This document shows positions 3,539 to 24,090 of a stretch of DNA of 27,826 bases, piece by piece. The stretch lies in the IMG/VR virus record IMGVR_UViG_3300027608_000125, positions 1-27,826 of that record; one strand, given 5' to 3'. How positions within the stretch are numbered: the first letter of the stretch is position 1; each line of letters opens with the position of its first letter. The notes beneath the pieces are model-generated. The model was not told the DNA's origin and did not search any database. It was given only the letters and a program-made list of their open reading frames with translations. Made by a program: the position numbers and the translations under genes. Source of the DNA: a virus.

Positions 3539-4422
3539 GTTACGTTCCCTGTGACAACACAAACAGTACCAGAGATAAACAACACGTTGCAAACGCCGCG
3601 TGTTGCCAACGAGATAGTAGCTTTGTCAGCGTCTGTGCCGCCAATATAAGCAGTGGTAATTGTCATAGTCAACGTGATTGCGCCAGAGGTGTTGTTAAAG
3701 ATAACAACAGCATCACCAGCAGCAAAAGTAGCATTGGGTACCACAATTGATCCGCTAGCGCCAACTTCAATAAACTCACCAATATCGCCTAAAGCAAGGG
3801 TGTAGCTAGTTGTTTTAGCTGCGCCAGACTGAGGGATGTTGAGGTAGCCTAATGAGCCAGATGACGGCAATGTCAAACTTGTAGATGCGCCAACAGTAAA
3901 TGTTGTTGGGAAACTACCTGAAATTGTCAGTGTGCTAGCGGCGTTGTTTGATACGCCTGTGCCACCATTTGCAGGACCTACTACGCCAGTTAAGGCAGAC
4001 AGCAAGCTTGACGATACTTTTACGTAATCAGTGCCGTTGTAGTAGACAAAACACTTTTCACCGACGGCAATTGACACACCTGTTTGGCCGGCAGCTTTAA
4101 ACGTTACTATGTTTGTAGCACCTGCGTGATCTACCATGTACAGCTTGCTGTAGCTGGGCCCTGTGATAACTTTAGCTACTGTTTGAGTGCCGGTAATACG
4201 AATCACCATGTACTGCGCTGTGGTAGTAGTTATTGAATTTCCTGACGAGTTACCTGTAGTGTTTGCCAAAGTAATAGCACCATCACCTGCAAAAGATAAT
4301 GTGCCTGCAATAGCAATATCAAGGTAGTCAGTAATACCGTAGTTGACTGTATCGCCCCACGTACCAGAGAGTGTTCCCTGTGTGGGGGTGACTAAGCCTA
4401 AAAGAGTTGTCGTTGCTGGCAT
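3535..4422 (-). CDS. Tail fibre-like virion protein
   Basis: A 295-residue Gly/Thr/Ser-rich protein of predicted beta structure. It opens MPATTTLLGLVTPTQGTLSG with TWGDTVN, then TLSFAGDGAITLANTTGNSS, and later GPANGGTGVSNNAASTLTIS, a pattern common in phage fibre and tail proteins. No enzyme motif is visible. It is between the repeat-built fibre gene and the Ig/FN3 protein, overlapping the latter by 4 nt, so these probably form one fibre/receptor-binding set. The family type is recognised; the exact position in the virion is inferred. Confidence 0.75.
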   Translation of the reverse strand: MPATTTLLGLVTPTQGTLSGTWGDTVNYGITDYLDIAIAGTLSFAGDGAITLANTTGNSSGNSITTTTAQYMVIRITGTQTVAKVITGPSYSKLYMVDHAGATNIVTFKAAGQTGVSIAVGEKCFVYYNGTDYVKVSSSLLSALTGVVGPANGGTGVSNNAASTLTISGSFPTTFTVGASTSLTLPSSGSLGYLNIPQSGAAKTTSYTLALGDIGEFIEVGASGSIVVPNATFAAGDAVVIFNNTSGAITLTMTITTAYIGGTDADKATISLATRGVCNVLFISGTVCVVTGNVT

Positions 4423-4432
4423 TTAAATGCTC

Positions 4433-5440
4433 CTAGTTTGTTGCGACTGCAACCCAGTTGGCAGTCTGTGTATTATCAATTACATCCCAGAATGGTTGTG
4501 CAGTCAACCCATCTGTACCTGTTGCTAACTCGTTAATAGACGCTACAAAAGCTGCTGCTGCTATCAAAGTTTCTGCACTTACTGCATTTTCAACAATTGT
4601 ACTTTTAAATGCTACTTGTGCCGTAATTACATCTGACCCCGTAGCGGTTTCTGTAATTGCCGCATTAACTACAACTATCGCCGTTACTGCATCTGTTCCC
4701 GTCGCCGTTTCCTGCACATCACCAAAATATACAAGACTTCCAGCTATGTTATCTGTTCCGGTTGCTGTCTCTGCAACTGTAGCCGCGTACACAGGCACAC
4801 TAGATACCGCATCCAATCCAGTAGCCGTTTCGGTTATCGTTGTAGCATAGTTAGGTGTAGATGTAATTCCATCGCTACCTGTAGCCGTCTCAGTAACCTG
4901 TGCCGCAAACGCTGCTACCGCTACAACATTGTCTGTTCCCGTTGCCGTTTCCGTTACCGCTACGCTAATCCCCAACGTAGACGTTACAACGTCTGAAGCA
5001 AGAGCTAACTCACCAACCCCACCCCAAGAGTTGTAACCCCAAGCGCTTTCGCCCCAGCCCGTGCCCGCTATTACCGCATCGTATACTTCACCGCCTACTA
5101 CTGCATCTGTGCCCGTAGCAGTCTCAGTAATTATTGCATCTACAGCTATAACCGAAGAAATTACGTCTGTTCCTGTGCTTGCCTCTGTTACCGTTGTAGC
5201 ATACAACGGCCCCCCTTCGGTAGCGTCTGTGCCTGTAGAGGTTTCCGTTATGTCTGAGGTAAATATCTTACCTGCCGCAATTACATCCGATCCAGTAGCT
5301 GTTTCACCTACTAAACCAGATGTGTCAAACTTTGCTACAACCGCGTCTGTGCTGGTAGAGGTTTCGTCGATGGTGCTGTCGTAGGCGACAAAGCCGCCCC
5401 AACCGCTGTCACCCCATGCGCCATCACCCCACCCGGCCAT
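4433..5440 (-). CDS. Tandem-repeat fibre protein (ETATGTD repeats)
   Basis: A 335-residue protein built almost wholly from repeats of about 20 residues centred on (T/A)ET(A/S)TG(T/S)D, each followed by a short Val/Ala/Ile-rich stretch and often Tyr/Phe-Ala. About fourteen units, some degenerate, can be counted. A Trp/Gly block opens the protein (AGWGDGAWGDSGWGGF) and a related block (GWGESAWGYNSWGG) recurs near residue 130. Such regular acidic repeats suggest an elongated beta-solenoid fibre shaft, with the Trp-rich parts as docking segments. The SD is weak and the start lies 2 nt from the previous stop, pointing to coupled translation. Confidence 0.8.
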   Translation of the reverse strand: MAGWGDGAWGDSGWGGFVAYDSTIDETSTSTDAVVAKFDTSGLVGETATGSDVIAAGKIFTSDITETSTGTDATEGGPLYATTVTEASTGTDVISSVIAVDAIITETATGTDAVVGGEVYDAVIAGTGWGESAWGYNSWGGVGELALASDVVTSTLGISVAVTETATGTDNVVAVAAFAAQVTETATGSDGITSTPNYATTITETATGLDAVSSVPVYAATVAETATGTDNIAGSLVYFGDVQETATGTDAVTAIVVVNAAITETATGSDVITAQVAFKSTIVENAVSAETLIAAAAFVASINELATGTDGLTAQPFWDVIDNTQTANWVAVATN

Positions 5441-5441
5441 A

Positions 5442-6020
5442 TTAAGCCGCCAAGCTGAATGTGTAAGTCACAGACAAAGTATCGCTGTTCACCACAGAAC
5501 GGTCACCGGGTGAGCCAAAGTCAGCCGCAGAGAACAATGTTCCTGTTGTGCCGCCTTTAACACTGCCGCTTGTTAAAAACGCGCCACCTATGGTGGTGGT
5601 TCCATTGATGTTAAACACGGCTGGTGAAGCTGAGTTAGTCACTACAGATGGATTGGCTGTTGTAGCAGTTACAAAAGTAGCAGCTACGCGGGTTCCGTTG
5701 CTATAGTTTGTATCTTCTGTCCAACCAGCGTGAGAGGCCATTGTATCACCCGCCGCAGGCGTATTAGAAGCGCCAGCGCCGTACAACCCAAGGAAGAAAG
5801 ATGTAATCTGAGTGACTGAAGTTAGAGCAGTCCCAGCCATGTAAGCTAGACCCGCGTTGACCACCAAGTTTTTAGACTCGGCTTGCCATTTAAAATTGCC
5901 ATCTTTATCACGGCAAATTATGTTAAATACGCCGGTTGCTTGTGCAGCTTCTCCAGCTTTGGTGTTGCAAGTCAGACCACTAGAAACAGTGTCAGTGGCT
6001 TTGGTTTTTTCAATAGTCAT
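5442..6020 (-). CDS. Virion protein, tail region
   Basis: A 192-residue protein. An N-terminal part carries GVFNIICRDKDGNFKWQAES, followed by a small-residue-rich region with WTEDTNYSNGTR and a C-terminal beta-rich stretch ending LSVTYTFSLA. The style (KDGNFKWxxExKNLVVNAG, then GWTEDTNY) is common to small structural proteins of environmental podovirus-like phages. It is immediately upstream of the repeat fibre gene and 9 nt after the previous one, in a tail gene cluster. Function by context only. Confidence 0.7.
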   Translation of the reverse strand: MTIEKTKATDTVSSGLTCNTKAGEAAQATGVFNIICRDKDGNFKWQAESKNLVVNAGLAYMAGTALTSVTQITSFFLGLYGAGASNTPAAGDTMASHAGWTEDTNYSNGTRVAATFVTATTANPSVVTNSASPAVFNINGTTTIGGAFLTSGSVKGGTTGTLFSAADFGSPGDRSVVNSDTLSVTYTFSLAA

Positions 6021-6029
6021 GATGACTCC

Positions 6030-6449
6030 TTAGTTAGAACTACGAATAAGAGCCGCCGTAGCGGTATTTGCTGGCATGGTGATTGTAAATGTAACAGTAG
6101 ATATTTTGTCAGATCCAAAGTCCAAAACGGCTATAGATTTGTTACCTTGGCTGGAGTTATAAATCAATGCGCCTCGAGCCGTAATAACTCCTGTCCATGA
6201 GATGTTAGGGAAACCCACAAAAGCTGTGTATCCAGAAGACGATACCGTGATGGGTGTTAACTGTGCCCCACCAGCAACGTAAGTGCCTGTATTAGGTACT
6301 TCGTTGGTTGCGCTGTACACAGTCGTGTCTTCGTTTAAATTTGCGCTGGCTGTGTACAAAGCAATCTTTATAACGTCAGTCGTCAAGTCATGTATGCCTT
6401 TATAAAGCTCTGCCTTAAAACTTGTGGTCTGGGTTTGAGCAATAGCCAT
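6030..6449 (-). CDS. Virion protein, tail region
   Basis: A 139-residue protein with no enzyme motif. The N-terminus has SFKAELYKGIHDLTTDVIKI followed by ALYTASANLNEDTTVY and NEVPNTGTYVAGG. This ordering is typical of small phage structural proteins that accompany tail and fibre genes. The start overlaps the adaptor gene stop by 1 nt, so the two are translationally coupled. Position suggests a tail tip or adaptor-attached component; the exact role is unknown. Confidence 0.7.
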   Translation of the reverse strand: MAIAQTQTTSFKAELYKGIHDLTTDVIKIALYTASANLNEDTTVYSATNEVPNTGTYVAGGAQLTPITVSSSGYTAFVGFPNISWTGVITARGALIYNSSQGNKSIAVLDFGSDKISTVTFTITMPANTATAALIRSSN

Positions 6450-7363
6450 TAGGTCACCGCCTGTCTAAATTGACCAGAACGGTAAGCATCTTGACGCTCC
6501 ATACCATCACCCAAACGTTTAGCCAATGCAAGCGCTTCCATGAACTTCTGGTTGTACAACTGCATCATGTCGGTTTCACCCTTCATGTATGTGTAAGCTT
6601 CAACCAAAGATGCGTACAAAAGCACTGGATCAAAGTTATCGCCTAGCCAAGACGTACCGCCTGCGTTAGTCACAGAAGCAACAGGAACGGAAAAACCAGA
6701 ACCTGTCCCACCAATATTGGCTGCGGCAGCAGACAGTGTATTTGCGACTCCATATTGCAGGCCACCATCTGTAATAGTTACGGCTGTTACTGCGCCGCCT
6801 GAAACAGTAATAGTAGCCAATGCCCCGCTTCCAGTACCGCCAGTCAAAGGCACATCAAAGTATGTACCCGCTGTGTATGCGCTACCGCCCGTAATAGTTC
6901 CTAATGTAGCCACAGGGCTTTGAACAATTGAAGGTGGGTAGAAGAAATAGTGCAGTTCCGCCCCGTATGCGGCATCTGGCGTTGGGCCAAGAATAAAAGT
7001 TAGCTCAGCCGGATTGTCTGAACGTGGGCCAAACAAAGCATAGTACCTAGGAAGCCCTGTGTCTGTGGGCTGTGGGTATGCTTGCCGGATAAAGTTAACG
7101 TCTTTGTTTAACAAGTACTCGTACTCACCACTGGCGCTAATAATGGCCAATGAATACACCGCTAAGAAATCCGTGGGGCACTGCAAATACTTGTTGTTTG
7201 TTGTAGTTGCGCCTGTCACATTACTGCGCAAAGACGGAAACTGTACCGAGTTGAATATACGCTCTTCAGCTTGCTGAACGAACACGGGGATATTAGCCAC
7301 GAAATCTGCTTCCGTGTTCTCCGTGTACGCTTGGATAGCGTTGCTGAGTTGCGTGTAATTCAT
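6449..7363 (-). CDS. Head-tail adaptor-type protein with inserted Gly-rich module
   Basis: A 304-residue protein whose ends match phage adaptor/connector proteins (SU10-type adaptors as I recall): IPVFVQQAEERIFNSVQFPS near 25-44, LQCPTDFLAVYSL, PRYYALFG, and after the insert DNFDPVLLYASLVEAYTYMK. Between about 153 and 236 sits an inserted Gly/Thr-rich beta module (TGGTGSGALATITVSGGAVT, then GGTGSGFSVPV). It likely joins portal to tail. The module splits the adaptor fold between YFFYPPS and the helical end. Start overlaps the upstream stop by 4 nt. Confidence 0.8.
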   Translation of the reverse strand: MNYTQLSNAIQAYTENTEADFVANIPVFVQQAEERIFNSVQFPSLRSNVTGATTTNNKYLQCPTDFLAVYSLAIISASGEYEYLLNKDVNFIRQAYPQPTDTGLPRYYALFGPRSDNPAELTFILGPTPDAAYGAELHYFFYPPSIVQSPVATLGTITGGSAYTAGTYFDVPLTGGTGSGALATITVSGGAVTAVTITDGGLQYGVANTLSAAAANIGGTGSGFSVPVASVTNAGGTSWLGDNFDPVLLYASLVEAYTYMKGETDMMQLYNQKFMEALALAKRLGDGMERQDAYRSGQFRQAVT

Positions 7364-7617
7364 GCCATCGGACCTCTAGCAATCGTGCCTTTGGTTGCCG
7401 CGCCGTTACCACGGGTGACGATACCAGTTGTTTTAGCTTCTGGTGCTGACCTGCGGTTAATGCCTGCAACAGACATATTGACTGTAGACGCATCGCTTCG
7501 GTCAGGACGGGAATTAGAAGCGGCTTTAACAGGCTTGCCCGTCATAGTGTGTGGAGGCGCATAGACCGCCGCATCACCAACTTCTTTGCCCATTATTTTT
7601 TTGCTAAACGTAGCCAT
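7360..7617 (-). CDS. Small virion-cluster protein, unknown
   Basis: An 85-residue basic protein rich in Ala, Thr, Lys and Arg, with no hydrophobic segment. It starts MATFSKKIMGKEVGDAAVYA and ends GNGAATKGTIARGPMA. It overlaps the adaptor gene by 4 nt and directly follows another tiny basic gene. Probably disordered and virion-associated or DNA-binding. Family not recognised; the evidence is coupling and position in an unbroken late operon. Confidence 0.65.
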   Translation of the reverse strand: MATFSKKIMGKEVGDAAVYAPPHTMTGKPVKAASNSRPDRSDASTVNMSVAGINRRSAPEAKTTGIVTRGNGAATKGTIARGPMA

Positions 7618-7618
7618 A

Positions 7619-7816
7619 TCAAGCTCCTTTTTTGTACGTAAAGGAAGACTTTTTCTGGTTAGCTACTTTAGCCAAACCACGACCCAGAGATTTCATCTGT
7701 GCGTTAGTTTTGCCGCCTTTGGCTAATTTAGTCATAGGCTTGCCGGGATGCAGCTTTTTCTCGTGCTTATGTACAGCACCAGCCACCATTTTTTTATCCT
7801 GTTTCATATCATTCAT
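7619..7816 (-). CDS. Small Lys-rich protein
   Basis: A 65-residue, strongly basic protein (MNDMKQDKKMVAGAVHKHEK, ending KKSSFTYKKGA) with a KLAKGGKTNAQMKSLGRGLA core. An AGGAG SD lies 8 nt before the ATG. It resembles the set of small Lys/Gly-rich genes further upstream (9190-10766) and may bind packaged DNA or pack inside the head. Function unknown. Confidence 0.65.
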   Translation of the reverse strand: MNDMKQDKKMVAGAVHKHEKKLHPGKPMTKLAKGGKTNAQMKSLGRGLAKVANQKKSSFTYKKGA

Positions 7817-7825
7817 TTTAAGCTC

Positions 7826-8248
7826 CTAAGATATTGTTACTGTACCAACATTTGTCGTTGCCACCAAGTAGTTTGGAGTCAATGCCACATCAAAATTACT
7901 AGCTCCGCCAACCGGATACCAGCCCCATTGAAACACCCTGCTACCGCCCTCTGGATAACCAAACCCATCAGGGGCTGTACTGTTAGTTAATATAATCTGC
8001 AATCCGCTAGTTCCCGACTGTGTATAGCTTACATCAGGACGCGGCTCTCGTACAGCTTGTGGATCATCTACGGGGTACATACCCAACTGCAGTTGAGGTT
8101 GATCAGGGTCCCAACACTCAGGACACACTTTTATGTTGAACAAGCGTGTCTTGATAATTTCTTTCTTCAGGTTTTTAAGCATGTACCGCTGACCACACCT
8201 ATCGCACTCTGCAATACTATTTTTGCCTGAAGCGTATCTACTTGACAT
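7826..8248 (-). CDS. Zinc-ribbon structural-cluster protein
   Basis: A 140-residue protein with an N-terminal zinc ribbon: CDRC (C15, C18) and CPEC (C42, C45), separated by a Lys-rich helix. Next comes a Pro/Asp-rich linker (YPVDDPQAVREPRPDVSY) and a C-terminal beta-rich part ending VATTNVGTVTIS. The four cysteines have zinc-binding spacing. Proteins of this layout sit in the connector/tail gene block of similar phages. It lies between two adaptor-like genes, so a structural or assembly role is likely. Metal binding is inferred from the motif. Confidence 0.75.
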   Translation of the reverse strand: MSSRYASGKNSIAECDRCGQRYMLKNLKKEIIKTRLFNIKVCPECWDPDQPQLQLGMYPVDDPQAVREPRPDVSYTQSGTSGLQIILTNSTAPDGFGYPEGGSRVFQWGWYPVGGASNFDVALTPNYLVATTNVGTVTIS

Positions 8249-8251
8249 ACA

Positions 8252-9190
8252 TCACCTGTAGAACGACTGTCTTGGAACATAGCGATCAGGAGCCTTCTCG
8301 CGGTCTTCCTGCGACGCTAACGTCCACTGTTCTTCATAAGCCGCTTTAAGCATCACAATACGCTCCATAGGCACGTCAGCGCGCTTAGAACCAACATAAT
8401 AGGCTAGACCAGCCACTACGCATGGAATCAGCCGGAATGGAATATCTTGCACGTTAACGCCGTTGCCAGCGTCTTGCATGCGGCGCATACGCCAGTAGAC
8501 AAACACATACTGATCCCCAGGGGCATTGGGCGTAGGCCACACGTTTACACACGTGAGGTTATTAACCGTTACGGTAGCGCTAATTGCGTGAGATGCGGCA
8601 GTTGTATTAGTGCTGCCATTGTACTGACCACGATAGCAATTAAGTAGTTGATTACCGCTGACGTTAGCGTAGAAGATTGTTTCTGAATCAATTGTGATAA
8701 ATCCTGTTGCGGGTAGGCTTGTAGTAGAACTAAGAGTAATAGTCGTGTCTGTTGCCGCTATCGTTGCTGCTACAGTTGCCGTAGACAAATAACTCTCATT
8801 AGACTGCCGGTTAATCCACATCTGAATAGGGCGACCTTGGGCCAGCTTGTTTGGTAGCGTTGACCACGTTGATTCAGAGATGCGGCTAATGTTGATATCG
8901 ATCTGGTTGATCGTAGTCGCCTGTGTACGGATAACTTGATCCAACAGATCAATTGTAGTATTAGGCAAAGCATAGACGCCCTGCCCAGTGTTCATTACGA
9001 ATTGGCCTTGCTCAATAGTCCATAAATTGATGCCACGGTTAGCCCATTCAATCGTAAGCATATTGAAAGACCGGCGTGCGGTACGAAACTCATAGCCAGT
9101 ACGAACCTCAATACCCGCCCGCTCATACGCTTCTTCAACGATATCGTTAAAGTCTAGGTTAAATGCGGAGGTTCCTGAAGTGCTAGCCAT
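8252..9190 (-). CDS. Connector/adaptor virion protein with inserted beta module
   Basis: A 312-residue phage structural protein. The N-terminal helical part (DFNDIVEEAYERAGIE, then FRTARRSFNMLTIEWANRGI with LWTIEQG) and the C-terminal helical part (IPFRLIPCVVAGLAYYVGSK) are typical of connector or adaptor proteins. Residues about 137-208 form an inserted beta-rich module (TDTTITLSSTTSLPATGFIT, DSETIFYANVSGN, YRGQYNGST, then AASHAISATV). It probably docks to the portal. Start overlaps the previous stop by 1 nt. Family type is recognised; exact position in the virion is not. Confidence 0.8.
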   Translation of the reverse strand: MASTSGTSAFNLDFNDIVEEAYERAGIEVRTGYEFRTARRSFNMLTIEWANRGINLWTIEQGQFVMNTGQGVYALPNTTIDLLDQVIRTQATTINQIDINISRISESTWSTLPNKLAQGRPIQMWINRQSNESYLSTATVAATIAATDTTITLSSTTSLPATGFITIDSETIFYANVSGNQLLNCYRGQYNGSTNTTAASHAISATVTVNNLTCVNVWPTPNAPGDQYVFVYWRMRRMQDAGNGVNVQDIPFRLIPCVVAGLAYYVGSKRADVPMERIVMLKAAYEEQWTLASQEDREKAPDRYVPRQSFYR

Positions 9191-20997: not shown

Positions 20998-21009
20998 TGT
21001 CCCCGTCCA

Positions 21010-21047
21010 AACTTTACTTATGCCCCCCTTCTACGCTAATCTATACC
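21010..21047 (+). promoter_or_regulatory. Rightward promoter box, copy A
   Basis: AACTTTACTTA at 21010-21020 followed by an A/T-rich -10-like sequence (CTATAC, 21041-21046). The same 11-nt box stands ahead of the two paralog genes at 22395 and 23296. TTATGC to CTATAC has 17-nt spacing. Which hexamer is the true -35 is uncertain. Confidence 0.5.
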
Positions 21048-21093: not shown

Positions 21094-21255
21094 ATGTACA
21101 CAGTAAATGTACGTTGGGGTGAGCTTACAAAGACTCACAAGGCTTGGACACTTAGCAGTGCCAAGGCATGGATGTACACATACCCTAACAAGGATGTGTT
21201 CGCAAAGGTGACCAACCTGTTTGGTCGGACAGTTGCAGTGCGGTACAAACGCTAA
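21094..21255 (+). CDS. 53-residue protein, unknown
   Basis: A small basic protein read from the sequence: MYTVNVRWGELTKTHKAWTL, then SSAKAWMYTYPNKDVFAKVT and NLFGRTVAVRYKR. A strong SD (AAAGGAG) lies 7 nt before the ATG. It is the first gene of the rightward module and would be expressed early. There is no membrane segment or known motif. The good SD and position after a promoter box support a real gene despite its size. Confidence 0.7.
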   Translation: MYTVNVRWGELTKTHKAWTLSSAKAWMYTYPNKDVFAKVTNLFGRTVAVRYKR

Positions 21256-21262
21256 GCAACAA

Positions 21263-21285
21263 GGGGGATGGTGACAGCATCCCCC
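21263..21285 (+). promoter_or_regulatory. Intergenic hairpin
   Basis: GGGGGATG and CATCCCCC pair perfectly (8 bp) around the loop GTGACAG. No T-run follows; instead the AAGGAG site of the next gene is 6 nt on. This fits an mRNA processing or stability element rather than a terminator. Confidence 0.55.
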
Positions 21286-21301: not shown

Positions 21302-21460
21302 ATGTACTTAGGTCTAGCTTTGGTGGTCAACACGATCATCTTCGCCCTGTCGTTATCCATGTTGATACCACAAGGTATGTGGCTTGGGTTGATAGGTTTG
21401 GTAATCAGTACGATATTGATTACATTGATCTTGCCTGAGATCAAACACAAGGACGACTGA
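21302..21460 (+). CDS. 52-residue two-TM protein
   Basis: Read from the sequence: MYLGLALVVNTIIFALSLSM, then LIPQGMWLGLIGLVISTILI and TLILPEIKHKDD. Two hydrophobic helices with a short PQGMW turn and a charged C-terminus. AAGGAG precedes the start by 5 nt. Its stop codon TGA (21458-21460) lies inside the CUGAUGA core of the first hammerhead, and its last codons form one strand of the ribozyme stem I, so translation and ribozyme folding would compete. Function unknown. Confidence 0.72.
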   Translation: MYLGLALVVNTIIFALSLSMLIPQGMWLGLIGLVISTILITLILPEIKHKDD

Positions 21461-21502
21461 TGAGGCTTTAGTAGCCGAAACCGCAGGGATGCGGTCTCGT
21501 TC
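21451..21502 (+). ncRNA. Hammerhead ribozyme, type I, copy 1
   Basis: All core positions are present: CTGATGA (21457-21463); stem II GGCT/AGCC with loop TTAGT (21464-21476); GAAA (21477-21480); stem III CCGCA/TGCGG with loop GGGA (21481-21494); then TC (21495-21496) giving the GUC cleavage triplet. Stem I pairs GGACGA (21451-21456) with TCGTTC (21497-21502), one G-U included. Stems II and III are closed by loops and stem I is open, so this is type I. Predicted cut after 21496, leaving a 24-nt leader before ATG 21521. The fold is fully canonical; activity is predicted, not shown. Confidence 0.9.
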
Positions 21503-21520
21503 ATTAACAAGGAGAATAGC

Positions 21521-21820
21521 ATGAGAGATTATGACGCGGGTTATTTGGGGTGGGATGTTCAAGTCACTTTAGATGAGTGCAAGTCAGACAATGTACCTTG
21601 CAAGTACATAGGCATTGGTCATGTAGATGCTGATGACTACAAGTCAAATTACTACCCAATGTATGAAATCGAATTAGAAGGTTTTATTATCACAGACCTG
21701 ACTAACAACGAGATCCGTATTCGTTGCAAAGAGTCAGGTGAGGCAGGTGTATTTGATCGTGATGCCTATTGGACTAGAGGCGGTCAATCCCTTGCTGAGT
21801 TCTACGCAAAGAACTTCTAA
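21521..21820 (+). CDS. 99-residue protein, unknown
   Basis: An acidic, soluble protein: MRDYDAGYLGWDVQVTLDEC, then SNYYPMYEIELEGFIITDLT, NNEIRIRCKESGEAGVFDRD, with many Tyr and Asp. No known domain recognised. An AAGGAG SD lies 7 nt upstream. It is flanked by two hammerhead elements, one 24 nt before its start and the second beginning right after its stop codon, so its mRNA would be cut out as a monocistronic piece. A role in early host takeover is possible but unproven. Confidence 0.75.
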   Translation: MRDYDAGYLGWDVQVTLDECKSDNVPCKYIGIGHVDADDYKSNYYPMYEIELEGFIITDLTNNEIRIRCKESGEAGVFDRDAYWTRGGQSLAEFYAKNF

Positions 21821-21872
21821 GAACAACTGATGAGGCTTTAGTAGCCGAAACCGCAGGGATGCGGTCTTGTTC
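21821..21872 (+). ncRNA. Hammerhead ribozyme, type I, copy 2
   Basis: Same core, stems II and III and loops as copy 1: CTGATGA (21827-21833), GAAA (21847-21850), stem III (21851-21864), TC (21865-21866). Stem I pairs GAACAA (21821-21826) with TTGTTC (21867-21872), six Watson-Crick pairs. Compared with copy 1, the second pair has changed from C-G to U-A on both strands, a compensatory change that supports the fold. Predicted cut after 21866, again exactly 24 nt before the next ATG (21891). Stem I could extend through a bulged A using the preceding stop codon TAA. Confidence 0.9.
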
Positions 21873-21890
21873 ATTAACTAAGGAGATAGC

Positions 21891-22136
21891 ATGAGCTATG
21901 AGATAGCGTACGCTGACATCGGGTCAGCAGAAACAAAGCAAAAGGCTTTGTTGGACATCAAAGACTACTGGGGTGCAAAGCACTACAAAAAAGTCACTAA
22001 GGCATTGGCTGATGATCATGGTAGATCTAGTAGACAGATGATCAACATCAGCCTGATGATGTGCGGTGTTCAAGGCTACCCAGCCGAGGTGTTGTTAGAC
22101 ACCTACTGGACACCACAGATGTTGTTGGACCTCTGA
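21891..22136 (+). CDS. 81-residue protein, unknown
   Basis: A small soluble protein: MSYEIAYADIGSAETKQKAL, then YWGAKHYKKVTKALADDHGR and SSRQMINISLMMCGV. The region KYKK..ALADDHGRSSRQM looks helical and basic, possibly nucleic-acid binding, but no family is recognised. The SD AAGGAG sits 6 nt upstream, directly after the second hammerhead. Its stop overlaps the next start (TGATG). Confidence 0.7.
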   Translation: MSYEIAYADIGSAETKQKALLDIKDYWGAKHYKKVTKALADDHGRSSRQMINISLMMCGVQGYPAEVLLDTYWTPQMLLDL

Positions 22137-22249
22137 TGACACGCGGCCAGATTAACCTCTGGCGCGCTCATGTTCAGCGTGCCACGTTCTGCGCAAAGCT
22201 TGATGGCTTTGAATACAGTAGGTTGCCTAGCAACTACTTCAGGAGATGA
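22136..22249 (+). CDS. 37-residue protein, unknown
   Basis: A tiny gene starting in the stop of the previous one (TGATG): MTRGQINLWRAHVQRATFCA followed by KLDGFEYSRLPSNYFRR. It is basic and terminates just before an intrinsic terminator, closing the operon. The coupling and terminator position support it being real. Function unknown. Confidence 0.6.
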   Translation: MTRGQINLWRAHVQRATFCAKLDGFEYSRLPSNYFRR

Positions 22250-22251
22250 CC

Positions 22252-22278
22252 AAGGGAGCTTCGGCTCCCTTTTCTTTT
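22252..22278 (+). terminator. Intrinsic terminator of first rightward operon
   Basis: AAGGGAGC (22252-22259), UUCG tetraloop, GCTCCCTT (22264-22271), then TTCTTTT. A stable 8-bp stem with a T-rich tail. Confidence 0.85.
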
Positions 22279-22318
22279 GCCCCCACTTTATCCCACATAT
22301 GGTAATGGTGCGCGTGAT

Positions 22319-22354
22319 ACCAGTTATTTTCCGTCGCGCGTATGAGTGCGTGCG
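22319..22354 (+). repeat. GC-rich repeat R, copy 1
   Basis: Starts ACCAGTTATTTTCCGTCGCG and runs through CGTATGAGTGCGTGCG. Copies 2 (23219) and 3 (24054) lie after the terminators of the two paralog genes. It separates the terminator from the next promoter. Confidence 0.75.
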
Positions 22355-22386
22355 AGTAGGCAAGGGCGCTGAATAGGGACTCACTC

Positions 22387-22438
22387 CCCAGTGAAACTTT
22401 ACTTAAGAGTCCCACTAGCGTAAGGTTATATCACTGGG
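22387..22438 (+). promoter_or_regulatory. Promoter box B flanked by inverted repeat
   Basis: AACTTTACTTA at 22395-22405 with TTAAGA (22403-22408), 17-nt spacer and TTATAT (22426-22431). CCCAGTGA (22387-22394) and TCACTGGG (22431-22438) form a perfect 8-bp inverted repeat around it, a candidate operator. Another CCCAGTG follows at about 22453-22459. Confidence 0.6.
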
Positions 22439-22495: not shown

Positions 22496-23155
22496 ATGGC
22501 AAAATCAGCCGCAAAAGCCGTAGAATCCGCTACGCAAGTATCTTTCACTTCCCTGAAAGACTCAGCCTACCAACAAGCGGGAGCCGCTAAGACTCTTGAA
22601 GACGTAGCACGCTACGCTCTGACTCAGATCAAAGACTTCCCCAAAGAAGTCCCAACTGAAGCTAAAGACCAACTGTATGAAGGTTATCGCATGAAGTTCA
22701 ATGCGCTTCAACCCGCTACCATGTATGCGGTTATCAATGACCACTACGTTCGTGCCACGCCTGAGCATATCAAGGCTGACAATGTAGAGAAAATTGAGAT
22801 CGGTGTTCCGTATGCTTACAGTTACTCGGCTCAAGAGTTTGGTAAGTTGGCAAACACCAACCCCGCTCTCCACGCTCTTGTGAAGAGTATCAGAGAGAAG
22901 TGTTCTACTTATTGCTCGAATCGACTGGGCGACTTGAAAAGAGCCGCTACGAAGATTCTCAAAGAGGGTCAAGAGGGGCGAGCCAGAACCGCCAATAAAA
23001 ACTTCGGTGAGTTTATCGAAGATTGGTTCAAAGAAGCCGCACCAACTAGGCTGATATCCGCTAAGAATCGGGGCGACAAAACCGCTGACGATAAACGATG
23101 GAATGAAGCTAAAGTCGCCTTTATGGTGAAATGGAAACACTCTGACGCTAAGTAA
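22496..23155 (+). CDS. Paralog A, unknown family
   Basis: A 219-residue soluble protein from MAKSAAKAVESATQ (GGAG about 9 nt upstream; the frame also opens at 22457 without support). Conserved blocks shared with the next gene: SLKD..YQQAG, YALTQIKDFP, MYAVINDHYVRAT, EKIEIGVPYAYSYS, QEFGKLANTNPALH and YCSNRLGDLKRA. The C-terminus is basic and variable. No domain recognised. It has its own promoter box and terminator, so it is a single-gene unit. The strong conservation suggests a defined structural or catalytic core, possibly nucleic-acid related. Confidence 0.8.
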   Translation: MAKSAAKAVESATQVSFTSLKDSAYQQAGAAKTLEDVARYALTQIKDFPKEVPTEAKDQLYEGYRMKFNALQPATMYAVINDHYVRATPEHIKADNVEKIEIGVPYAYSYSAQEFGKLANTNPALHALVKSIREKCSTYCSNRLGDLKRAATKILKEGQEGRARTANKNFGEFIEDWFKEAAPTRLISAKNRGDKTADDKRWNEAKVAFMVKWKHSDAK

Positions 23156-23202: not shown

Positions 23203-23218
23203 CGCCCGTTATTTTGAA

Positions 23219-23252
23219 ACCAGTTATTTTCTGTCGCGCGCGGGAGTGCGTG
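23219..23252 (+). repeat. GC-rich repeat R, copy 2
   Basis: ACCAGTTATTTTCTGTCGCG, then CGCGGGAGTGCGTG. Differs from copy 1 at a few positions. Copies 2 and 3 also share the preceding TTATTTTGAA/TTATTTGAA stretch. Confidence 0.75.
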
Positions 23253-23295
23253 CGTGACCCGTAAAACCCTTAAATAGTACCCCACACCCCAGTGG

Positions 23296-23330
23296 AACTT
23301 TACTTAAGACCCCACATGTGTCAATATAAA
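23296..23330 (+). promoter_or_regulatory. Promoter box C before paralog B
   Basis: CCCCAGTGG then AACTTTACTTA (23296-23306), CTTAAGA and TATAAA at 23325-23330. Nearly identical to box B upstream of the box, but lacking the downstream TCACTGGG arm. Confidence 0.55.
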
Positions 23331-23384: not shown

Positions 23385-23990
23385 ATGTCTACCATTTCAT
23401 CATTGAAGGATTTGGGCTATCAACAGGCAGGGACAGGGGACAGTTTAGACGCACAGGGCGAATATGCCTTGGCACACATTGCAGGGTTTCCAGAGGACAT
23501 CCCAAGCGAAGCAAGGGAAATGCTTTACGATGGTTATCGCTTACGCCATGGCGAACGTCATCCTGCCAAGGTCTATGCCGTTGTTAACGATCACTATCTG
23601 CTAGCAACAGAGGAACAGATCAAAAACAAAAAAGTAGAAAAAATCGAAATTGGTGTGGCTTATGCCTTTGCCTATTCATCGCAGGAATTTGGCAAGCTCA
23701 AAAACACTAACCCAGCATTGCATGGCATCGTAAAGGTGATACGTGACGATGTGGCAGATTACTGTTCTAACCGATTAGGTGATCTTAAACGTGCCTGTAA
23801 ACGCATCCTTGCAAAGCGTAACGGCACAACGACAACACGCACAACATTGTTTTTTGAGGAATCGATGAAAACAATTTTTGACGCACAGGCAAAATCTGTG
23901 AAAGTGAAAGAAGCAAAACGTGACGCCACAGCAAACAGCGCCAAGTATGCGCTTGCCGTAAAAGCGTTTTGGATGACATACAACAAATGA
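23385..23990 (+). CDS. Paralog B, unknown family
   Basis: A 201-residue protein from MSTISSLKDLGYQQAG with GGAGG 7 nt upstream (a longer frame start at 23292 is not supported). It is clearly paralogous to the gene at 22496: shared blocks are YALAHIAGFP, VYAVVNDHYLLAT, EKIEIGVAYAFAYS, QEFGKLKNTNPALH and YCSNRLGDLKRA. In the 58-residue core from EKIEIGV to the IL after GDLKRA, 42 residues are identical by hand count, while most synonymous codon positions differ. The C-terminus is Lys-rich and different. Function unknown; has its own promoter box and terminator. Confidence 0.8.
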   Translation: MSTISSLKDLGYQQAGTGDSLDAQGEYALAHIAGFPEDIPSEAREMLYDGYRLRHGERHPAKVYAVVNDHYLLATEEQIKNKKVEKIEIGVAYAFAYSSQEFGKLKNTNPALHGIVKVIRDDVADYCSNRLGDLKRACKRILAKRNGTTTTRTTLFFEESMKTIFDAQAKSVKVKEAKRDATANSAKYALAVKAFWMTYNK

Positions 23991-24038: not shown

Positions 24039-24053
24039 TCCGTGTTATTTGAA

Positions 24054-24090
24054 ACCAGTTATTTTTCGACGCGCGCGAGAGGGCGCGCAT
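24054..24090 (+). repeat. GC-rich repeat R, copy 3
   Basis: ACCAGTTATTTTTCGACGCG then CGCGAGAGGGCGCGCAT. No gene follows directly; instead the repeat-rich origin-like region begins, so the cassette series ends here or a third gene has been lost. Confidence 0.7.

Follow-up and report, generated by a model that had tools for sequence, protein, structure and literature searches.

The two elements described here, located at 21451–21502 and 21821–21872 on the plus strand of a phage contig, are hammerhead ribozymes right to the base, and they probably act as self-cleaving type I hammerheads that punctuate a series of co-transcribed small accessory genes. Comparison with related loci shows the copies also behaving as borders of exchangeable gene units. 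The window, which is the whole stretch of DNA that was analysed, is a 27.8-kb contig of an uncultured phage taken from an IMG/VR record. The leftward genes of the window include terminase, portal and head genes, and the best relatives of the terminase among named phages are 48–53% identical (Pelagibacter and gammaproteobacterial phages). The rightward small genes begin near 21094.

Sequence and fold of the two elements

The 40-nt core CTGATGAGGCTTTAGTAGCCGAAACCGCAGGGATGCGGTC occurs exactly twice in the window, at 21457–21496 and 21827–21866 (+). In copy 1 the two strands of stem I, 21451–21456 and 21497–21502 (GGACGA/UCGUUC), enclose the core CTGATGA at 21457–21463, stem II at 21464–21476, GAA at 21477–21479, stem III at 21480–21495 and C17 at 21496, giving a predicted cut at 21496/21497. 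Copy 2 is arranged in the same order on the same strand, with stem I formed by 21821–21826 and 21867–21872 (GAACAA/UUGUUC), the core CTGATGA at 21827–21833, stem II at 21834–21846, GAA at 21847–21849, stem III at 21850–21865, C17 at 21866 and a predicted cut at 21866/21867. The minimum-free-energy fold of each 56-mer is the exact hammerhead, with energies of −19.5 and −18.2 kcal/mol and z values of −2.3 and −2.5 respectively. Both folds have the type I topology, in which stem I is the open end and stems II and III are closed by loops. The core that defines the hammerhead class (C3 U4 G5 A6 N7 G8 A9, G12 A13 A14, A15.1-U16.1 and H17) is exact in both copies, and the two elements are accordingly assigned as type I hammerhead ribozymes that are predicted to cleave themselves.

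The first-pass annotation had described CTGATGA, a stem II closed by G-C, GAAA, a GUC cleavage site and an undamaged core in both copies, and this was borne out by the exact sequence and the fold. Its 5-bp stem III becomes 6 bp long when A15.1-U16.1 is counted. The copies differ in stem I only, by one two-sided and one one-sided change that both preserve pairing; these are a G-C to A-U replacement, changed on both sides, and a G-U to A-U replacement, present as had been claimed. The two copies are not independent, because they are parts of a 77-nt direct repeat of 90% identity that runs through ATGAG and represents a duplicated unit of both junctions.

The operon begins with a gene of 53 aa (21094–21255, +), which is the conserved upstream anchor in relatives, followed by ORF A (21302–21460, +), encoding a hydrophobic protein of 52 aa. 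The terminal codons of ORF A, GAC GAC, together with its stop TGA, provide the 5′ strand of stem I in ribozyme 1 and the beginning of the core. ORF B (99 aa, 21521–21820, +) is an accessory gene between the two ribozymes, with homologues that may or may not have a hammerhead in front, and ORF C (81 aa, 21891–22136, +) is an accessory gene after ribozyme 2. The stop of ORF C overlaps the ATG of a 37-aa gene (22136–22249, +) within CTGATGA at 22133–22139, and a terminator-like hairpin at 22252–22271 (+) marks the end of the operon. The next starts after the predicted cuts are ATG 21521 and ATG 21891, so that the ORF B and ORF C messages would have leaders of 24 nt each, 21497–21520 and 21867–21890 (+), containing the Shine-Dalgarno sequence AAGGAG at 21509–21514 and 21880–21885. 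The spacing of 24 nt between cut and ATG given by the first-pass annotation is thus exact for both cuts, after 21496 and after 21866, but its description of the operon as early is supported by no observation in this analysis. ORFs A to C gave no PHROG or Pfam family above the cut-off.

Several other repeated features were observed around the operon. Hammerhead-free junctions, such as 21262–21285 and the same junctions in relatives, often have a G+C hairpin before the Shine-Dalgarno sequence, and G+C hairpins and hammerheads may be alternative kinds of punctuation in this phage group. Three copies of a box ending in AAACTTTACTTA or GAACTTTACTTA (21000–21020, 22385–22405 and 23286–23306) precede the operon (21094) and the paralogous genes of a tandem pair (22496 and 23385), and may represent a repeated promoter or operator of the phage. 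Another repeat, which starts TGA(T/A)ACCAGTTATTTT, is also present in three copies (22315–22354, 23215–23254 and 24050–24089), each directly after a terminator-like hairpin, and occurs in relatives too. The tandem paralogues, at 22496–23155 and 23385–23990, are proteins of about 200 aa (SSLKD, YQQAG) that gave no Pfam or PHROG family above the cut-off; the first has relatives in 26 loci.

Hammerheads of related phages

Shuffled sequences contained no match to the 40-nt core, and 0.04 chance matches to a loose hammerhead pattern were expected per window. The same kind of pattern was found in at least 120 stretches of a viral collection. With a pairing filter, 138 matches were obtained in these viral loci against 0 when the same DNA was reversed or complemented. 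The filter itself demands pairing and both alignments described below were made from filtered matches, so the raw matches provide the cleaner control: among those listed with a stem III of at least 4 bp, 75/108 pair at 6/6 stem I positions, compared with 2.5% that are fully paired when the 5′ and 3′ strands of stem I are taken from different matches. Covariation was strong in two independent alignments: two-sided changes were present in 13/16 pairs of alignment A2 and in 12/15 pairs of alignment A3, with covariation scores that were reached by no shuffle, and the relatives show the covariation in all three stems that is expected of the hammerhead class. All of these viral scans were seeded by pattern, with ORFs called mechanically and contigs that are not phylogenetically independent.

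A covariance model, R2, was built from other phages only, with the window copies held out. It scored copy 2 at 59.1 bits (E 8e-14) and copy 1 at 56.5 bits (E 5e-13), the E-values being rough and calculated for 280 kb. At least 158 matches to R2 were found in 88 loci, with 131 distinct sequences in the alignment, and in these G5, A6, G8, A9, G12, A13 and A14 are constant; the only other variation of the core is at N7, apart from one U4-to-C change. N7 is the hammerhead core position that tolerates changes. The residue at H17 is C in 129 of the distinct relatives and A in 2. The 35 matches that lay outside the reach of the search pattern have the same seven constant residues, with U4 replaced by C in one and T, C, A or G at N7.

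The Rfam models gave a different result. Both window copies were missed at the gathering cut-offs, and at E up to 10 copy 1 had no match at all and Hammerhead_1 (RF00163) had no listed match in the window. The best Rfam score in the window was 25.6 bits for RAGATH-1 on copy 2, against a cut-off of 56.3. The first-pass annotation had pointed to an Infernal search as the check on its proposal, with scores under threshold in both copies as the refuting result; both copies are formally below threshold with Rfam, while scoring 56.5–59.1 bits with R2. The low Rfam scores are attributed to the Rfam models, because in 13 phage loci known to bear hammerheads the same search recovered not one of them at the gathering cut-offs, and Hammerhead_1 gave some of them 20–30 bits where its cut-off is 34. 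Many such elements are probably passed over by annotation pipelines.

The window copies and their relatives are members of one phage subtype, which is widespread and has a stem I of 6 bp that ends in G-C and a loop II of sequence UNANU. In the 131 distinct sequences this loop is conserved, as is the A...G-C...AA end of stem I, which would fit a putative tertiary contact between the two. A pseudoknot between loop II and the leader (UUAGU with ACUAA after stem I) was considered and rejected, as it fits copy 2 only.

The position of the hammerheads relative to genes is also regular. An ATG-started ORF lies 20–34 nt after the cut in 109/177 distinct viral hammerheads listed (62%; control 8.4%), and in the clan of the window the start codon is 22–29 nt after the cut in 36/40 and 24 or 25 nt after it in 20/40. 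A gene ends on one side and a gene of the same strand starts on the other in 131/158 fully flanked hammerheads listed (83%; control 8.5%). The upstream ORF ends peak sharply at the first UGA of CUGAUGA, with 50/170 among the matches listed. All copies are on one strand in 32/32 of the multi-copy contigs listed, and two or more hammerheads beside small co-directional genes in phage DNA were found in the window and in at least 32 multi-copy contigs. The 51-kb contig L331 contains nine hammerheads in 4.3 kb (4446–8720), each right before a small ORF, and another contig contains seven. Several upstream stop codons (TAA) in L331 belong to stem I (GATTAA).

Single hammerheads were found in two named isolates, Flavobacterium phage elemo, where the ribozyme is 28 nt upstream of a start codon, and Pelagibacter phage Jormungand. 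In Flavobacterium phage elemoC (L250, 5995–6056) the hammerhead is unannotated and overlapped by a predicted ORF of the opposite strand, phanotate42, which is probably spurious. In Jormungand (L249, 3001–3065) the hammerhead is located at the 3′ end of gp49, and ardA, marR and an integrase gene lie nearby; the same three kinds of gene neighbour the Agrobacterium triple hammerhead of Perreault et al.

The sequence of stem I is characteristic of each genome. This was measured in 19 multi-copy contigs of the first scan, which was blind to stem I; a few of these closely duplicate one another, which brings the effective number slightly under 19. At the outer four positions of stem I the agreement within contigs was 0.65 compared with 0.30 in shuffles, and 0/2000 shuffles reached 0.65. 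Stem II gave no signal (0.60 against 0.64 shuffled) and stem III little (0.63 against 0.52, p 0.008). When strands of stem I were swapped between copies, 56% paired at five or more positions within a contig, compared with 9% between contigs. In the nine-copy contig the 3′ strand is TTAATC in 9/9, combined with nine different stem II/III combinations. In this genome no enrichment of the stem I 3′-strand motif was seen in the leaders of genes that lack a hammerhead, and TTAATCTT is absent outside the ribozymes on their strand. Two readings fit a constant stem I. One is recombination tolerance, since stems II and III are each self-contained whereas the two strands of stem I flank the whole element; the other is that the processed message would be constrained at its 5′ end.

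Gain, loss and exchange of hammerhead-gene units

Loci were compared between relatives with genes in common on both sides, and units consisting of a hammerhead and a gene were found to be gained, lost and swapped at orthologous places. In the hammerhead-free relatives L306 and L307, ORF A runs via CTGATGA directly into the 37-aa gene. Compared with L306, the window has an extra stretch of 676 nt (21464–22139, +) that contains the rest of ribozyme 1, ORF B, ribozyme 2 and ORF C and is bordered by CTGATGA at 21457–21463 and 22133–22139. A second filled and empty pair is formed by L312, which has a hammerhead-ORF B unit, and L316. The same ribozyme 1 is directly before ORF C in L127 and L292, while in L269 and L291 the gene after it is a different one, with a further hammerhead and a further gene behind. 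Elsewhere (L124–L126, L129 and L130), ORF B, ORF C and the L123-type gene each lack a preceding hammerhead. In a second clan, made up of L252, L261, L262, L266, L274, L277, L282 and L285, the small genes F2, F3, F6 and F11 change places among the hammerheads in the same way. A search of the phage collection for named relatives of the nine-copy and second-clan loci gave none of use. The modular gain and loss is established from the sequence, as are the fold, core, covariation, strand and spacing.

The hammerhead-free relatives L296, L311 and L317 share the terminal codons of ORF A (AAGGACGAC), and the stem I 5′ strand is therefore borrowed coding sequence. The usual 3′ strand of the clan, TTGTTC, would pair with the AAGGACGAC-derived 5′ strand via two G-U pairs. 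In copy 1 the 3′ strand is TCGTTC, a single change that improves one G-U to G-C and would make sense only for RNA pairing. At 3979–4022 of L291 the final codons of an accessory gene traverse the ribozyme core and stem II (ending EEQLMRLK, with the stop in stem II), and for this reason the C-terminus of the protein differs from that of its hammerhead-free homologues (L300 and L302).

We tentatively suggest that these arrangements could be cassettes punctuated by hammerheads, in which a ribozyme and its downstream gene form one exchangeable unit, and the ribozyme is both a recombination-tolerant boundary and an RNA processing site. Such cassettes would be fitted into stop-start junctions, and since the core CUGAUGA contains the junction UGAUGA, the upstream protein would still end at the UGA inside the ribozyme. 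A stem I kept constant among the copies of one genome might let recombinants pair, or give all processed messages a common 5′ end, and hairpins II and III, each self-contained, would be free to vary.

Proposed processing of the operon and comparison with known systems

The core, covariation, spacing, gene junctions, unit exchange and arrays together make intercistronic self-cleavage the best reading, and the mRNA processing proposed in the first-pass annotation appears supported by the co-directional gene junctions, short Shine-Dalgarno leader, covariation, invariant core and same-strand multi-copy arrays. For the infected cell we infer that the operon RNA, which reaches from 21094 (first gene) as far as 22271 (end of the terminator-like hairpin), would be cut after GUC by ribozymes that fold during transcription. 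The cuts would release separate messages for ORF B and ORF C, each with a 5′-OH and a 24-nt leader bearing the Shine-Dalgarno sequence, and the upstream message would retain the stem II and III hairpins and a 2′,3′-cyclic phosphate at its 3′ end. A 5′-OH and a 3′ terminal hairpin should slow decay of the RNase E/RppH type and by 3′ exonucleases, and each message would therefore have a lifetime of its own, whatever its neighbours, which would suit a locus with frequent gene exchange. With the stop codon of ORF A inside the core of ribozyme 1, a terminating ribosome would cover the ribozyme, and its cleavage should compete with translation of ORF A. Some points count against intercistronic self-cleavage. 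The Rfam scores fall under the gathering cut-offs, and stem I is only 6 bp, so that fast cleavage would depend on the putative contact between loop II and the end of stem I. Compactness alone could set the start-codon spacing, which is near the shortest that fits stem I and a Shine-Dalgarno sequence, and the hammerhead is dispensable since hammerhead-free relatives carry the same genes.

Hammerheads that serve mainly as DNA-level boundaries for cassette recombination, with ribozyme activity secondary or incidental, would account for the units inserted or missing at orthologous places (window/L306, L312/L316 and F2, F3, F6 and F11 of the second clan) and for the core hexamer TGATGA, which is the stop-start junction of hammerhead-free relatives. 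This is nevertheless unlikely, as pairing is kept while the stems change and the core is invariant save N7, neither of which is needed for homology alone, and stems II and III, which are wholly different between copies of one genome, lower the homology. Similarly improbable is a role in transcript trimming or gene control, where cleavage is an on/off switch for the downstream gene rather than constitutive processing, coupled for example to salt, to temperature or to whether the upstream gene is being translated. In the 50/170 listed cases with the upstream stop within the core, the ribozyme would be masked by a terminating ribosome, and a regulatory role is suggested for a halovirus variant in PMC3088659, but the gaps hold only the ribozyme and a minimal leader, with no ligand-binding extension or alternative pairing.

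A remnant of a retroelement or retrozyme, or a self-mobile hammerhead element, is very unlikely; against a retroelement-like remnant the first-pass annotation had cited the precise gene spacing. Presence and absence at orthologous sites would fit such an element, as would direct repeats at the edges (TAAGGA in L123 compared with L126, CTGATGA in the window compared with L306). These edge repeats are, however, pre-existing Shine-Dalgarno or stop-start sequences that vary by site, and the hammerheads are always on the gene strand and adjoin the next start codon. The locus showed neither a reverse transcriptase nor a long terminal repeat, its only repeated unit being the 77-nt junction, and the long terminal repeats, primer site or reverse transcriptase dependence and constant target duplication that define retrozymes and retroelements were not found. 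TAAGGA was rejected as a target-site duplication of a general mechanism, since other copies have different edge repeats and GGAC belongs to the clan's own stem I. The scores under the Rfam cut-offs would also fit a chance or degenerate, inactive look-alike, which is given almost no weight in view of the hold-out E-values near 1e-13 and the controls in reversed or complemented DNA, empty against 138 real matches; chance origin is already refuted.

Clustered hammerheads that flank genes in prophages are described in Perreault et al. 2011 (PMC3088659), where processing into operon- or single-gene messages was proposed and three tandem sets were found to cleave, in vitro and, for one set, in E. 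coli. The principle of single-gene messages is therefore not new. A 2017 review noted that hammerheads flank ORFs of small non-conserved proteins and called their role open (PMC6155905), and a 2023 paper gave the reason for hammerhead gene associations as unknown (PMC10085705). The literature searched, which included few subscription papers and not the supplements of Perreault et al., contained no description of the junction geometry, of the cassette behaviour or of a stem I specific to each genome, nor anything relevant to hammerheads and accessory-gene exchange. The leader length, core stop codon, same-strand placement, genome-specific stem I and filled and empty sites make the question of their role directly testable, and isolated phages with such a ribozyme exist (elemo and Jormungand).

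The elements resemble the clusters of Perreault et al. in having several nearby hammerheads that flank individual small genes in phage DNA. They differ from those clusters in coming from uncultured phages of other lineages with a uniform type I subtype and 6-bp stem I, and in the measured start/stop geometry, the empty sites at orthologous positions and the arrays, which reach nine copies. The open stem I, core, A15.1-U16.1 and cut after H17 are shared with Hammerhead_1 (RF00163), although the phage elements fall under its gathering cut-off. RAGATH-1 (RF03152) is the only Rfam hammerhead family to touch the window, where nothing but unrelated coding sequence matches its extra 5′ hairpin. Plant retrozymes and the hammerheads of animal satellite DNA are of the same ribozyme class, but the phage elements are without long terminal repeats or a satellite array and are tied to bacterial gene starts. 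The theta (HDV-like) ribozymes of gut phages (PMC10879173) are likewise self-cleaving with an RNA-processing role in phages, but belong to another ribozyme class and are involved in tRNA-based recoding.
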